Source: Jatrophihabitans cynanchi (lineage in GTDB: Bacteria; Actinomycetota; Actinomycetes; Mycobacteriales; Jatrophihabitantaceae). Taken from it: a DNA stretch of 64,000 nt. The DNA lies in NCBI RefSeq assembly GCF_027247405.1, contig NZ_CP097463.1, positions 1,364,001 to 1,428,000 on the forward strand, read 5' to 3'. Positions 58,228 through 63,122 of this stretch are shown here, in pieces. The notes under the pieces were generated by a model. That model was not told the origin of the DNA, ran no database searches, and worked only from the letters and a program-made list of their open reading frames with translations. Position 1 is the stretch's first letter, and each line of letters begins with the position of its first letter. Both the position numbers and the translations under genes were made by a program.

Positions 58228-58299
58228 GCGTTCGACGAGAAGGTCGCTCGGACGCACACCTAGGCTGTCGGCGATGCGCCAGATGTTGTCCAGAGCGAT
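58228..58299 (-). pseudogene. XRE-type regulator, C-terminal remnant
   Basis: Reading leftward, the bases just outside the left end of the IS3-type element encode IALDNIWRIADSLGVRPSDL followed by LVER and a stop. This is the end of a Cro/C1-type HTH domain. The N-terminal part is not found across the IS3-type element, so the gene was truncated. Confidence 0.55.
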
Positions 58300-58314
58300 G
58301 GGGTCTGCTGCACG

Positions 58315-58639
58315 AACGGGTGACAGGTTCGGTTAGGCCGCCTGGGTGGGCGGTTGGGGTCATGATTGCTTCGTACTCGATGGGGGTCAATCGGCCGAGC
58401 GCGTCTTGTCGCCGGCGGCGGTGGTAGGTCCGCTCGATCCAGGTCACGATCGCGATCCGCAGCTGTTCGCGGGTGCGCCACGGCTGCCGGTCCAGGACGT
58501 TCTTTTGCAGCAGCGAGAAGAAGCTCTCCATGGCGGCGTTGTCGGCCGCGGAGGCGACCTGGCCCATCGAGCCGACCATTGCGTGACGCGTCAGCGCGCG
58601 GTGGAACTTTCTTGATCGAAATTGCGATCCGCGGTCGGA
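58315..58639 (-). pseudogene. IS3-family transposase OrfB, C-terminal part
   Basis: Reading leftward from the RIT boundary: SDRGSQFRSRKFHRALTRHA, MVGSMGQVASAADNAAMESF with the catalytic Glu, then RTREQLRIAIVTWIERTYHR and RRRQDALGRLTPIEYEAIM. It continues the OrfB broken at 62128. No stop is met before the inverted repeat, so the original stop was lost or the protein end is read through. Confidence 0.82.
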
Positions 58640-58664
58640 GCTAAGCCGAATTCGGCTTAGCAGC

Positions 58665-58749
58665 GATTATGCCGAGGTCTGCGTTATGCCGAAGGTCGGC
58701 GGGATCCCCTTTGCTGGCAGGGCTGCGTGACTGATTCCTCGGCTTAACG
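58665..58749. repeat. RIT element terminal inverted repeat, left
   Basis: 85 bases starting GATTATGCCGAGGTCTGCGT and ending ATTCCTCGGCTTAACG. It contains TTATGCCGA twice (58668-58676 and 58684-58692), probably recombinase binding sites. The inverse copy is at 62040-62124. Confidence 0.85.
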
Positions 58750-58758
58750 ATCCGGCGG

Positions 58759-59802
58759 TTAGCGGAGGCTGTAGAGGGCCTGCAGTCGCTCCTTCGTGAG
58801 TCGGCGCGCCTGGGGTGTCGTGACGGCTGGGGTGGCGGCATCGACGGCTTTGCGCATCATGTCGACGGTGGCGAAGGCGTAGAACGCCGAGGTGGTCGAC
58901 ATGTTCTCGTGGCCGAGGAGTCGCATGATGATCGGCAGCGCGATGCCCTGCTGGTAGAGGTCCATCGCTTTGGTCTTGCGCAGCATGTGGCAGTGGATGT
59001 CTTCGGGAATCGAGGGACATCTTCGGCGTGCGGTTGTGGCGGCGCGTTTGAGCACTGCGGCGACGGTGTCGGTCGACAGCGCGGTCGGTGCCCCGTTGTG
59101 CAAGCTGTAGAACACCGGGCGGGTCGTTTCGGTTCGGGCGATGCCGGGGTGGAACTCGGCGAGGTAGACGTCCAGGTGTTCGATCGTCTTCGCGGTGAGC
59201 GGGACGACGCGGGTCTTGTCACCTTTGCCGGTGAGGACCACATGGCCGGGCCGGTGCAGGTGCAGGTCGGCCAGCGTCATGGCGGTGAGCTCACCGACGC
59301 GGGCGGCGGTGTCGTAGAGCAGGATCAGCAGCATCCGGTTCCGCCGCGATTTCGGGGTGCGGCCGGTGAATGCGGCGAGCACCGCGCTCGTCTCGGGTTC
59401 GGTGAGGTACTCGATCGGTTCCCTCGCCGCGGTGGGTGCGCGCAGCGTCTTGGCTTGCTGGCTGACCGTGACGAGGGTGAGGTCTTCGGCCGCGCAGTAG
59501 GCCAGGAACGCTTTGACGGCGGTGAGCCGCAGGCCGATCGTCCGTGGCGCGTAGTGCTGCTGCCCGCCCATCCAGGCGAGCCATCCTTTCAAGTGCTGCC
59601 GGTCGAGATGGTCGAAGCTGACGTGTGCGCGGGCGACGTGGTGCTGTTCGGCGAGGTAGCGCAGGAGGCATTCCAGGCTGATCCGGTAGGCCTCGACCGT
59701 GTTCGCCGAGCGGTGCGCCATCGTCGGCAGGTAGACGTGCAGGTAGTCGCGGGCGTAGCGGTAGAAGTCCGGTTCGCGGGTCGCTCGGTCATGCTTGGTC
59801 AT
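58759..59802 (-). CDS. RIT tyrosine recombinase, third gene
   Basis: 347 residues from ATG 59802, overlapping the preceding gene by 14 bp. An N-terminal SAM-like core-binding domain (TMAHRSANTVEAYRISLECL) precedes the catalytic domain: Arg in AARVGELTAMTL, Lys in LTGKGDKTRVVPL, HxxR in HCHMLRKTKAMDL, GHE in LLGHENMSTTSAFYAF with the nucleophile Tyr. All catalytic residues are present. The earlier frame to 60162 overlaps the second gene too deeply. Confidence 0.9.
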   Translation of the reverse strand: MTKHDRATREPDFYRYARDYLHVYLPTMAHRSANTVEAYRISLECLLRYLAEQHHVARAHVSFDHLDRQHLKGWLAWMGGQQHYAPRTIGLRLTAVKAFLAYCAAEDLTLVTVSQQAKTLRAPTAAREPIEYLTEPETSAVLAAFTGRTPKSRRNRMLLILLYDTAARVGELTAMTLADLHLHRPGHVVLTGKGDKTRVVPLTAKTIEHLDVYLAEFHPGIARTETTRPVFYSLHNGAPTALSTDTVAAVLKRAATTARRRCPSIPEDIHCHMLRKTKAMDLYQQGIALPIIMRLLGHENMSTTSAFYAFATVDMMRKAVDAATPAVTTPQARRLTKERLQALYSLR

Positions 59803-60775
59803 CGAATCCGACCTCCGGCAGCAGCGACTGGCCTGCGGTGGTGAGTCCGTCGTAGGCGTGCAGGAACTCCGGCGAGGTGTGGATGTAGTAGAACGTCGAC
59901 TCGATGCTGGCGTGGCCCATGTAGCGGGCCAGGTAGGGAAGCATCGCCATGACGTCCTTGCCCTGCGCCATCCAGCGATCGACGTTGGCGTAGGCGAAGT
60001 GATGCCGGAAGGCGTAGGGCGTGGGCTGCACCCCGCCGCTCGGCCGTGAAAGAGCGGCCTGGTGCCAGATACGCCGGAAGATCTCATCGATGGTCGCGCC
60101 TGTGACCTCGTTGCCGGTCCTCGAGATGAAGAAGGTGGCCCGTGACGGTCCGAAATGCGCACGCGTGATGCGGTCGCACTTGGCCAGAACCCTCGTGACG
60201 TCGGCAGTGAGCGGGAGCCTTCGCGACCGGTTGCCCTTGGAGTCGACCACGTCGAGGGTCCTGTCGCGCAGGTGCACGTGCTCGGGGCGTAGCCGCCGGG
60301 TCTCCCCGGTCCGCAGCCCGCAACAGTGCATCAACGTGAAGAACGCGACCGACTGCCACCGCCACGGCGACGCCGCCCGCACCGCCGCCGCAGTAGCGAA
60401 GAACGCCTCGATCTCCGCCTCGCCGAGCAAGTAGGGGTGCGTGGGCAGGCGTTGAGCCTTCCACCGGTCCGACAAGACGTAGGCGTCACACTGCCCGTGG
60501 GCCTGCAGCCAGCGGCCGACATCGCGGATGTAGGACATCCAGGACCGGTAGGGGCCCGTGCGGGCCAGACGCTCGCTGACCCATCCCTCGACCGTGTCGC
60601 GGTCGAACACCGTCCGGTCGTGAGAGGTGCAGTAGGCGTCGAACTGCCTCAGGTACCAGACCCTGGAGGCGCCGTAGAACCCCATCTGCTCCTTGAACGC
60701 GAGGTAGGCGGCAAGGTGCGGTGCGAACGCGCTGGTGAAGTCATGGCCGTTCGCGGCCAGCGCCTTCGTGCTCAT
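59789..60775 (-). CDS. RIT tyrosine recombinase, second gene
   Basis: 328 residues from ATG 60775, overlapping the first gene's stop (ATGA). N-terminal core-binding domain HLAAYLAFKEQMGFYGASRV; catalytic domain with Arg in CGLRTGETRRLRPEHVHL, Lys in VVDSKGNRSRRLPL, PYAFRHHFAYANVDRW with Arg and His, and YMGHASIESTFYYIH with the Tyr. Complete. Confidence 0.9.
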   Translation of the reverse strand: MSTKALAANGHDFTSAFAPHLAAYLAFKEQMGFYGASRVWYLRQFDAYCTSHDRTVFDRDTVEGWVSERLARTGPYRSWMSYIRDVGRWLQAHGQCDAYVLSDRWKAQRLPTHPYLLGEAEIEAFFATAAAVRAASPWRWQSVAFFTLMHCCGLRTGETRRLRPEHVHLRDRTLDVVDSKGNRSRRLPLTADVTRVLAKCDRITRAHFGPSRATFFISRTGNEVTGATIDEIFRRIWHQAALSRPSGGVQPTPYAFRHHFAYANVDRWMAQGKDVMAMLPYLARYMGHASIESTFYYIHTSPEFLHAYDGLTTAGQSLLPEVGFDDQA

Positions 60776-61977
60776 GGCCGCGCGCCGGCGGGGACGTCGA
60801 GGACGCAGTCGAGCAGGCGCACGACATCGACGCTCAGATACAGGTCAGTCGATTTCGGCCGCGCGTGGCCGAGCACGGCCGCGATGGTCGGCAACGGCAC
60901 CGACGCCCTCAGCAGCCGTGTCGCGGCGTTGTGCCGCAACAGACGCGTGCTGCCCAGCACGTCCGCGACGCCGGCCCGACGGAACACCGTGGTGATCACC
61001 CGGTGGACCGTGGCGTGGTCGGCCAGCCGCGTGTGCGGGGCCACCGAACGCACGAACAGATGCTCGTCCGGCGAGTCTGGCCGCTGGTCAAGGACGTACT
61101 CGGCAAGCCGGTCGACTACCAGATCGGTCAGCGGCACTGTCAGCGGGTTGTGGGTCTTCTGCTGCACGAGGCTCGCGGTCCGTGCCCGCCAGTCGATGTC
61201 GTCACGAAGCAGACTGATGATGTCGCATGCGCGCAGCCCCGTCGTGACCGCAAGCAGCGTGATGGCAGCATCCCGTGCCGGTATAGCCGGCGTTGCGCAT
61301 GCCTGCACGATCAGGCGCTGCGCCTCGTCCGGCAGCGCCGGCACGATCCGGTGAGAGCGCTTGAGGCCAGCCAACCCGAGCGCGTCGACCAGGTCGCTGC
61401 GGCCGGTGAACTTCAAGAACGGGCGGAAGTTCGACACGACCCAGAACAGCGACGACGTCTTCCACGTAGCCGTCAACGAGTTCAGGTAGCTCAGCACGCT
61501 CGCCCCGTCGGCGTCACGGAGACGGCGGATCCCGCCTGCCTCCAGGAACACCAGGTAATCGCGAGCGACCCGGCCGTAGGCATCCCGGGTCGCGGACGCG
61601 AGAGCCCGGTCAGCCATGTCGGCCTCCCACGCGCCAACAAGCCGGACGAACTCCCGCGAGACAGGACGGGGCCCGCCCCCGCCACGGGTGCAGCAAGCCA
61701 ACTCGACCCGGCCCGTGGTGACGTAGGAGTTGAACACGCGGACCAGCCGTCCGTAGTCGAACCGGCGCTGCACGCTGAACCTGCCCGTCCGCGGGCTGAT
61801 CGTCATCGCCGCGAACTCCGCACCCAGCGCCGGTGTGTACTTGCCGCCCCGCCCGTCGGCGAGTTGCGTCAACGCCCTGATCGACTTCTCGTAGTTGCCG
61901 ATCGTTGACTCCATATAGCCGGCCGCGCGCAGCTCCGCGACAACAACCGACCCGATCCCCGTGACCGTCATGTCCAT
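60772..61977 (-). CDS. RIT tyrosine recombinase, first gene
   Basis: 401 residues from ATG 61977 with GGAGGAGGAG upstream. The N-terminus has an extra helical domain (ELRAAGYMESTIGNYEKSIR) before the core-binding region. Catalytic residues: Arg in TTGLRACDIISLLRDDI, Lys in VQQKTHNPLTVPL, STRLLRHNAATRLLRA with Arg-His, and VLGHARPKSTDLYLSV with His and Tyr. The three genes overlap by a few bases and should be translated together. Confidence 0.9.
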   Translation of the reverse strand: MDMTVTGIGSVVVAELRAAGYMESTIGNYEKSIRALTQLADGRGGKYTPALGAEFAAMTISPRTGRFSVQRRFDYGRLVRVFNSYVTTGRVELACCTRGGGGPRPVSREFVRLVGAWEADMADRALASATRDAYGRVARDYLVFLEAGGIRRLRDADGASVLSYLNSLTATWKTSSLFWVVSNFRPFLKFTGRSDLVDALGLAGLKRSHRIVPALPDEAQRLIVQACATPAIPARDAAITLLAVTTGLRACDIISLLRDDIDWRARTASLVQQKTHNPLTVPLTDLVVDRLAEYVLDQRPDSPDEHLFVRSVAPHTRLADHATVHRVITTVFRRAGVADVLGSTRLLRHNAATRLLRASVPLPTIAAVLGHARPKSTDLYLSVDVVRLLDCVLDVPAGARP

Positions 61978-62039
61978 GGCCGTCTCCTCCTCCGCATCGC
62001 GAATGGACACGGCGGACGCTGCCACCGAACAGGCCCAAA

Positions 62040-62124
62040 CGTTAGCCCGAGGAATCAGTCACGCAGCCCTGCCAGCAAAGGGGATCCCGCCGATCCTCGG
62101 CATAACGCAGACCTCGGCATAATC
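62040..62124. repeat. RIT element terminal inverted repeat, right
   Basis: The inverse of 58665-58749, with mismatches at about four positions. It again carries the paired TCGGCATAA boxes near the outer end. Confidence 0.85.
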
Positions 62125-62127
62125 GGC

Positions 62128-62718
62128 GTGAACGATGCAGCCGGCGACGTCGGCGCCGGTGACCGCGCGTCGGGCGACGGCGTTCTCGAGCGCCGCGACG
62201 GCGAGGCGGGCCTTCATGCGCGAGTCGATGGAGTATCCGACGATCTTGTTGCTGAAGCAGTCCTTGATCGCGCAGCAGTACAGCTTGCCCTCGCCGGTCC
62301 AGTGTTCGGTGATGTCGACCAGCCACAGGCTGTTCGGCTCGGCCGCGGTGAAGTCGCGGTTGACCCGATCAGGGAAGGCCGGCGTGCCGGGCTTGCGCTT
62401 CTTCTTGCCGTTGCGGCCGCGCGGCTTGCCGAACACTGACCACCAGCCGTTCGCGGAGCAGATCCGCCACGCCGTGCGGTCGGCCATGGCCTGCCCCTCC
62501 TCGCGGGCCTCGTCGGCCAGGAACCGGTAGCCGAACTCCGGGTCGTCGCAGTGGGCGTCAAACAGCGCGTTCGCCCGGTGCGCCTCAATCCATTCGGCAT
62601 CGGGCACCGGCTCGGCCAGCCAGCGGTAGTACGGCTGACGAGCGATCTGGAGCACCCGACACGTCACCGCGACGGGGATCCCGTCGACGGCCAGCTCACG
62701 GACGAGCGGGTACATCAT
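62128..62718 (-). pseudogene. IS3-family transposase OrfB, N-terminal part (interrupted by RIT)
   Basis: The frame begins at ATGATG (62718), overlapping the orfA stop. It contains PVAVTCRVLQIARQPYYRWL, the HTH_21-like DDPEFGYRFLADEAREEG, and NSLWLVDITEHWTGEGKLY with the first catalytic Asp, then DSRMKARLAVAALENAV and ends at GADVAGCIVHA where the RIT element begins. The missing part resumes at 58639. Confidence 0.85.
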
Positions 62719-63020
62719 TTCCCCTGGCTGCCCGGCAGGTTCGCCTGCGACAGATACGCCGCCGCCCGACGCAGGACCTCGTTCTCCTGCTCCAACAGCT
62801 TGTTGCGTTTACGCAGCTCACGCAGCTCGGCCGACTCACTGGTGGTGACACCGGGGCGCTTGCCCTGCTCGACATCATCGAGTGCAAGCCAGCGGTGCAG
62901 ACACGACTCGGAGATCCCGAAGTCCTTGGCCACCTGCGCCACCGATGCATCACCGCTGCGAGCGACCCGGACAACGTCCTCGCGGAACTCCCTAGGGAAC
63001 GGTTTCGGCACGGTCGACAT
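62715..63020 (-). CDS. IS3-family transposase OrfA
   Basis: About 101 residues from ATG 63020. PKPFPREFREDVVRVARSGD and ASVAQVAKDFGISESCLHRW form the IS3 HTH, followed by a leucine-zipper helix (ELRELRKRNKLLEQENEVLR). It normally acts with OrfB through programmed frameshifting at the overlap AAATGATG. OrfA is intact while OrfB is split, so the element is not autonomous. Confidence 0.9.
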   Translation of the reverse strand: MSTVPKPFPREFREDVVRVARSGDASVAQVAKDFGISESCLHRWLALDDVEQGKRPGVTTSESAELRELRKRNKLLEQENEVLRRAAAYLSQANLPGSQGK

Positions 63021-63122
63021 CCTTCCAGCGGAGATCAATCTCCACAGATCAGATGTCACCTATCCGTGCAGCAGACCCGATAGCCTCCTGGGCACCTGTT
63101 TCGACCGATAAGGAGTGCGTGA

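Follow-up and report, generated by a model that had tools for sequence, protein, structure and literature searches.

A complete RIT (recombinase in trio) element lies within an IS3-family transposase gene of Jatrophihabitans cynanchi, one of five copies in this genome. It is probably an active site-specific transposon, for which the attachment site is the codons of the second catalytic Asp of IS3-family transposases (H-[S/T/A]-D-x-G) and which would move through a circle carrying two sites for integration. In IS3 transposases, the H-[S/T/A]-D position is established as that of the second Asp of the DDE triad. From sequence alone, the genome provides a rule for the target, an empty site and a model open to testing, on the basis of a single attachment motif, a single intact target and five sets of junctions. 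One mobile element is here disabling another at its active site, where selection keeps the target conserved and available. The window analysed is 64,000 bp long and covers positions 1364001-1428000 of the genome, which is a single contig of 4,515,412 bp; positions are those of the window unless stated otherwise.

The RIT element and its interrupted IS3 host

The element occupies positions 58640-62127 exactly (3488 bp), and is flanked by the two halves of an IS3-family orfB, with orfA beyond. When the 3488 bp are removed and one 5 bp core is kept, orfB reads in frame over the junction as CIVHADRGSQFRSRKF, which bears out the sequence-only reading of a complete RIT with exact junctions in an IS3 orfB. 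All parts of the host gene are on the minus strand. The 5′ part of orfB (62123-62718) ends CAC-GCC-GA (H-A-D), the 3′ part (58301-58634) starts at the catalytic-Asp codon, and orfA, with a helix-turn-helix (HTH), is at 62715-63059. The RIT-interrupted host element, ISa, spans 58301-63078 on the minus strand, with terminal inverted repeats near 58295-58325 and 63054-63084; the ends of both were set by eye. Its target duplication is probably the 3 bp GAT at 58297-58299 and 63079-63081. The ISa orfB frame (58301-58634) runs beyond the end of the IS without a stop codon, leaving its true C-terminus uncertain. Elsewhere in the genome, at C1:890137-890194 (L018, L019, L034), both ISa end sequences adjoin within 58 bp with nothing between them, resembling a miniature or collapsed IS.

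The terminal inverted repeats of the RIT are 93 nt long and 92 % complementary (58664-58756, plus strand; 62033-62125, minus strand); by BLAST they are 86 nt at 95 %, in agreement with the inverted ends of about 85 bp and 95 % identity first described. The left repeat contains three motifs that are like recombinase sites, TTATGCCGAGG (58667-58677), TTATGCCGAAGG (58684-58695), and CCTCGGCTTAA (58737-58747). Outside the left repeat is a perfect 22 bp palindrome, GCTAAGCCGAATTCGGCTTAGC (58640-58661, without strand), that has no counterpart at the right end. Neither this one-ended palindrome nor the four further copies of the element had been noticed in the earlier reading. Three 5 bp cores mark the junctions: core x, GCCGA on the orfB strand (62123-62127, minus strand), which is native to the target; inner core y, AGCGA (58662-58666, plus strand); and core z, TCCGA on the orfB strand (58635-58639, minus strand), which is element-borne.

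Three intact, overlapping tyrosine recombinase genes had been reported between these ends, and the open reading frames are all present and intact on the minus strand: ritA (60772-61977, 401 aa) overlaps ritB (59789-60775, 328 aa) by 4 bp (ATGA), and ritB overlaps ritC (58759-59802, 347 aa) by 14 bp. These three recombinase genes are all that lies between the element ends; no Tfp, Srap or TnpC was seen there. RitA, RitB, and RitC each have a phage-integrase domain and match Xer proteins with modest scores. The Arg and Tyr of RitA and RitB align with those of Xer proteins, the first His of HxxR is replaced in both, and the Tyr of RitC aligns one residue off the XerD Tyr. RitA has been described as having two core-binding domains and RitC an extra C-terminal helix (PMC8138268); here, RitA has about 115 residues ahead of the SAM-like domain, which is compatible with two core-binding domains.

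Five copies at one target site

The interior of the element, 3276 bp, is 100 % identical in all five copies in the genome, each of which has different flanks. Since an identical interior recurs five times with five different flanks, the RIT is not a chance arrangement, and its five-fold amplification is recent. The copies occupy four different IS3-family orfB genes, the copies designated L030 and L031 being in identical IS copies, and all five read across to an intact orfB frame at H-[A/T/S]-D. Every readable insertion of this RIT lineage is at these same H-x-D codons; the element is therefore site-specific for the active site of the IS3 transposase. Random insertion into IS genes was rejected.

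A readable empty site had been anticipated, and one is supplied by an intact copy of the L029 target (L035, at genome position 1690991). This uninterrupted twin matches the L029 flanks over 929 and 332 bp at 100 %, and its empty site reads CAC-ACCGA-CCG. The search for an uninterrupted IS3 that had been suggested for the window copy was also made, and the nearest uninterrupted relatives of its target are 87 % identical. An uninterrupted relative of the L032 target was sought and none was found. When plasmids were searched with the joined ISa, ISc, and ISd genes, the matches listed included only relatives of 67-80 %, which were not used to determine native cores.

It is hardly credible that the copies have spread as passengers of their IS3 hosts, with the common position reflecting a single ancient insertion. 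The presence of L030 and L031 in identical IS copies would suit such an origin, but these two carry the element in opposite orientations and with different cores. Furthermore, the identical interior is found in four IS genes that are unrelated to one another, and for one of these an uninterrupted twin exists.

The identical IS3 copies of L030 (approximately 3665900-3670700 of the genome) and L031 (approximately 4261600-4266300), themselves in opposite orientation and both carrying the RIT, lie in two copies of a 92-94 % identical repeat, about 350 bp apart in register. The same genome also has a related transposase family (L037, L041-L044) with HADRGTSMTSK at the corresponding position, which is uninterrupted despite its H-A-D codons; this family scores under the cut-off for the IS3 family.

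Junctions, proposed circle and possible pedigree

On the orfB strand, the junctions read orfB...CAY-[x]-TTATGCCGAGG...element...CCTCGGCATAA-[y, reversed]-22 bp palindrome-[z]-...orfB. Here, x, y, and z stand for 5 bp cores of the form NNNGA. The window copy, L029, and L030 have rit genes co-directed with orfB, and L031 and L032 have them opposed to it, yet the palindrome is on the 3′ side of orfB in five out of five copies. As it is 3′ in both orientations of the element, its side is set by the target and not by the element. An asymmetric element end of the Tn916 type was rejected on the same grounds, the side of the palindrome tracking the target.

The origin of the outer cores can be read in three copies. 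In L029, x is the core of the empty twin and z differs from it. The nearest uninterrupted genes to the target of the window copy, those 87 % identical, carry GCCGA, which is its x, whereas its z is TCCGA. In L030, x agrees with that of L031, which lies in an identical IS copy. L032 gives no information on the native core. Based on the native-core readings in these three copies, it appears that the target core remains 5′ and that an element-carried core is placed 3′. Each inner core in this lineage is made up of a codon for Ser, Thr or Ala and a following GA, in line with uptake from earlier IS3 targets.

A palindrome at one end only, together with 5 bp cores, is consistent with a circle joint that holds two crossover sites in inverted orientation. 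In the mechanism proposed, the three recombinases would make a circular copy in which the joint would be [end B]-TCGNN-GCTAAGCCGAATTCGGCTTAGC-NNCGA-[end A]. Each crossover site would be a 5 bp core (NNNGA) between the element-end arm TTATGCCGAGG and half of the palindrome; element-end arm and palindrome arm have TCGGC[A/T]TA in common. Written as ATAATCG-NN-palindrome-NN-CGATTAT, the joint would have a 40 bp symmetry, bar the variable core bases, that extends into the inverted repeats. Either circle site could serve for recombination with the IS3 site; the element would thus enter in both orientations, and the palindrome would always come to lie at the orfB 3′ side. Copying would be strand-biased: the target's own 5 bp would be kept 5′, the 5 bp of the element laid down 3′, and the next circle would carry the 5′-side core with it, in the manner described for SE and Tn554 elements. 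Insertion destroys the host transposase. It may be speculated that the three different recombinases take on separate parts in recognising the element arms and the unlike target arms.

It is unlikely, although conceivable, that the element moves instead by conservative cut-out and paste-in of the Tn916 type, in which double-strand excision gives a circle with a heteroduplex 5 bp coupling sequence, mismatches are resolved at random, and copy number grows because excision comes after replication. This would use the same target and palindromic joint, the variable cores are like coupling sequences, and exact empty sites do exist. However, x is always the native core in the informative copies, of which there are only three, whereas random resolution would place it on either side. 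Quite unlikely, too, is an origin of the two orientations from inversion between cores x and y after integration, rather than from two circle sites. Cores x and y are mutually inverted across the element, and such an inversion would leave the palindrome 3′. Against this, y varies systematically with orientation, being AG in three copies and GC in two, as from two fixed circle sites; inversion with core exchange is still compatible with this pattern.

With two sites on a strand-biased circle, the cores would record descent. Taking x, y, and z in this order, their first two bases are GC, AG, and TC in the window copy; AC, AG, and GC in L029; AG, AG, and GC in L030; AG, GC, and AG in L031; and TC, GC, and AG in L032. 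A circle would take the x and y of its donor, such that one from the window copy would have the cores GC and AG. Use of one circle site would then give y = AG and z = GC, as in L029 and L030, and use of the other y = GC and z = AG, as in L031 and L032. From the x and y of the window copy, y and z are thus correctly predicted for each of the other four copies, eight values out of eight, and it is plausible from these bases that the window copy is the parent of all four. L031 as donor matches the predicted core values equally well. The window copy would be the earlier arrival, because its z (TC) cannot be derived from any present copy if circles carry x. Alternatively, circles carrying z rather than x would explain the four copies too, in which case the window copy would be a separate arrival.

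Known systems, relatives and other RIT lineages

RIT elements were first described in Cupriavidus metallidurans (PMC2864759, PMC3414803). In common with the known elements, the one described here has three overlapping tyrosine recombinase genes in fixed order, a length of about 3.5 kb, a palindrome that overlaps terminal inverted repeats, and multiple identical copies (PMC2864759, PMC3414803). Insertions have been reported in IS66 tnpA, radC, and a Tn6049 transposase (PMC2864759, PMC3414803), whereas the lineage in the window occurs solely at the H-x-D codons of IS3 orfB. In a survey from 2012, RIT ends were variable and the overlapping palindrome did not match the usual core-and-arm sites; the side rule and the variable cores would account for both this variation and the misfit of the palindrome. 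A review table from 2023 gives the target specificity, empty site, and movement of RIT elements as NT (not formally tested). The target rule, the palindrome-side rule, and the movement model were not found in the RIT literature examined, coverage of which did not extend to Ricker et al. (2013) and Van Houdt et al. (2009), and the priority of the target observation is uncertain.

The closest footprint is that of the strand-biased circularizing integrative elements (SE) and Tn554, in which the target overlap is likewise kept on one side and an element-borne overlap is on the other, with several tyrosine recombinases used for recombination (PMC10214605). SE require Tfp and Srap, and Tn554 requires TnpC (PMC10214605), none of which was seen in the RIT. 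The overlap is 6 bp in SE and 5 bp in the RIT, and SE joints are not described as two-site palindromes (PMC10214605). Certain large islands likewise have three recombinase-type genes that act jointly, but also a fourth gene that they require; the RIT is 3.5 kb long and has no cargo. As the SE gene set IntA-Tfp-IntB-Srap is absent, the RIT is not an SE, although the footprint is similar.

Relatives were found at the same codons in other actinobacteria. A RitB scan of genome contigs gave eight loci. This RIT lineage is rare, being present in 2 out of 200, 3 out of 395, and 2 out of 396 genomes (approximately 1000 sampled, including that of the window). Related trios with RitB 57-76 % identical are at the same IS3 codons in eight other hosts: Ornithinimicrobium/Serinicoccus (L021-L023), Nesterenkonia salmonea (L025), a Microbacteriaceae MAG (L026), Dactylosporangium roseum (L027, one end only), genome G095 (L072), and plasmids of Mycobacterium riyadhense (L066), Rhodococcus opacus (L067), and Arthrobacter (L068). 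L024 terminates within its repeats and its position is not assignable. Four out of seven distinct palindromes are perfect despite their differing sequences, and three have mismatches. Codon -2 is AT in all 12 insertion sites and in 9 out of 17 uninserted IS3 genes (Fisher p = 0.009; a post hoc comparison of non-independent sites), a hint that DNA recognition may extend past the protein requirement at the target. In the M. riyadhense plasmid RIT (L066, 1071-7081), ritA is split by an IS630-family element.

Three elements have hybrid ends. L026, a whole contig, is flanked at either end by an orfB 5′ half and lacks a palindrome; L068 (3573-7162) has an orfB 3′ half and a palindrome at each end; and L070 (3402-7231) carries two palindromes together with two YhcG 3′ halves that differ, being 72 % identical over 194 bp. 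From this arrangement of ends, they would be the reciprocal products of recombination between two RIT elements in opposite orientation. Such products are expected from the anatomy described above and are counted in favour of the two-site circle. L026 is on a short MAG contig and could be a misassembly.

Other RIT lineages, drawn from plasmids and mostly in order of RitB similarity, often have a single palindrome of approximately 20-32 bp at one end only. The interrupted gene could be assigned for ten of these elements but not for the remaining loci. Six of the ten are at catalytic motifs, the motif assignments here following what is established for these families: I-D in the YhcG PD-(D/E)XK nuclease (L069, L071), HEL|TH in an ArdC zincin (L098, 2600-6086), HE..H in an ArdC-like protein (L097, 2646-6122), IDNN..ER in IS66 TnpC (L094, 2674-6096), and a site beside the Tyr of another tyrosine recombinase (L091, 2515-6080). 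A further one interrupts the reverse transcriptase of a group II intron at the QGG motif (L092, 2618-6097). The other three lie at sites that are conserved but not known to have a catalytic role, in the C-terminus of IS66 TnpC (L100), IS66 TnpB (L107), and a strawberry-notch-type gene (L108), due to which a rule that all RIT elements insert at a catalytic residue was rejected. In Pfam, the gene halves end at nearby profile positions (zincin 52/53, YhcG 59/62, reverse transcriptase 117/124, and IS66 257/259).

There is about an even chance that the RIT class as a whole consists of site-specific transposons with palindromic two-site circle joints and footprints of the SE/Tn554 type, the lineages of which have settled on the codons of conserved, usually catalytic motifs in other mobile elements or in plasmid defence and anti-defence genes. 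If so, transposition pedigrees would be readable from sequence. Group I and II introns and inteins in conserved coding motifs likewise have a durable target in those codons of a widespread gene that are most conserved; these are spliced out, whereas RIT insertion inactivates its target. A coding target varies at wobble positions, therefore the recombinases must tolerate such variation, which is relevant to programmable insertion. The one-ended palindrome is present not only in Actinomycetota but also in Pseudomonadota and Bacillota, which suggests a general RIT mechanism.
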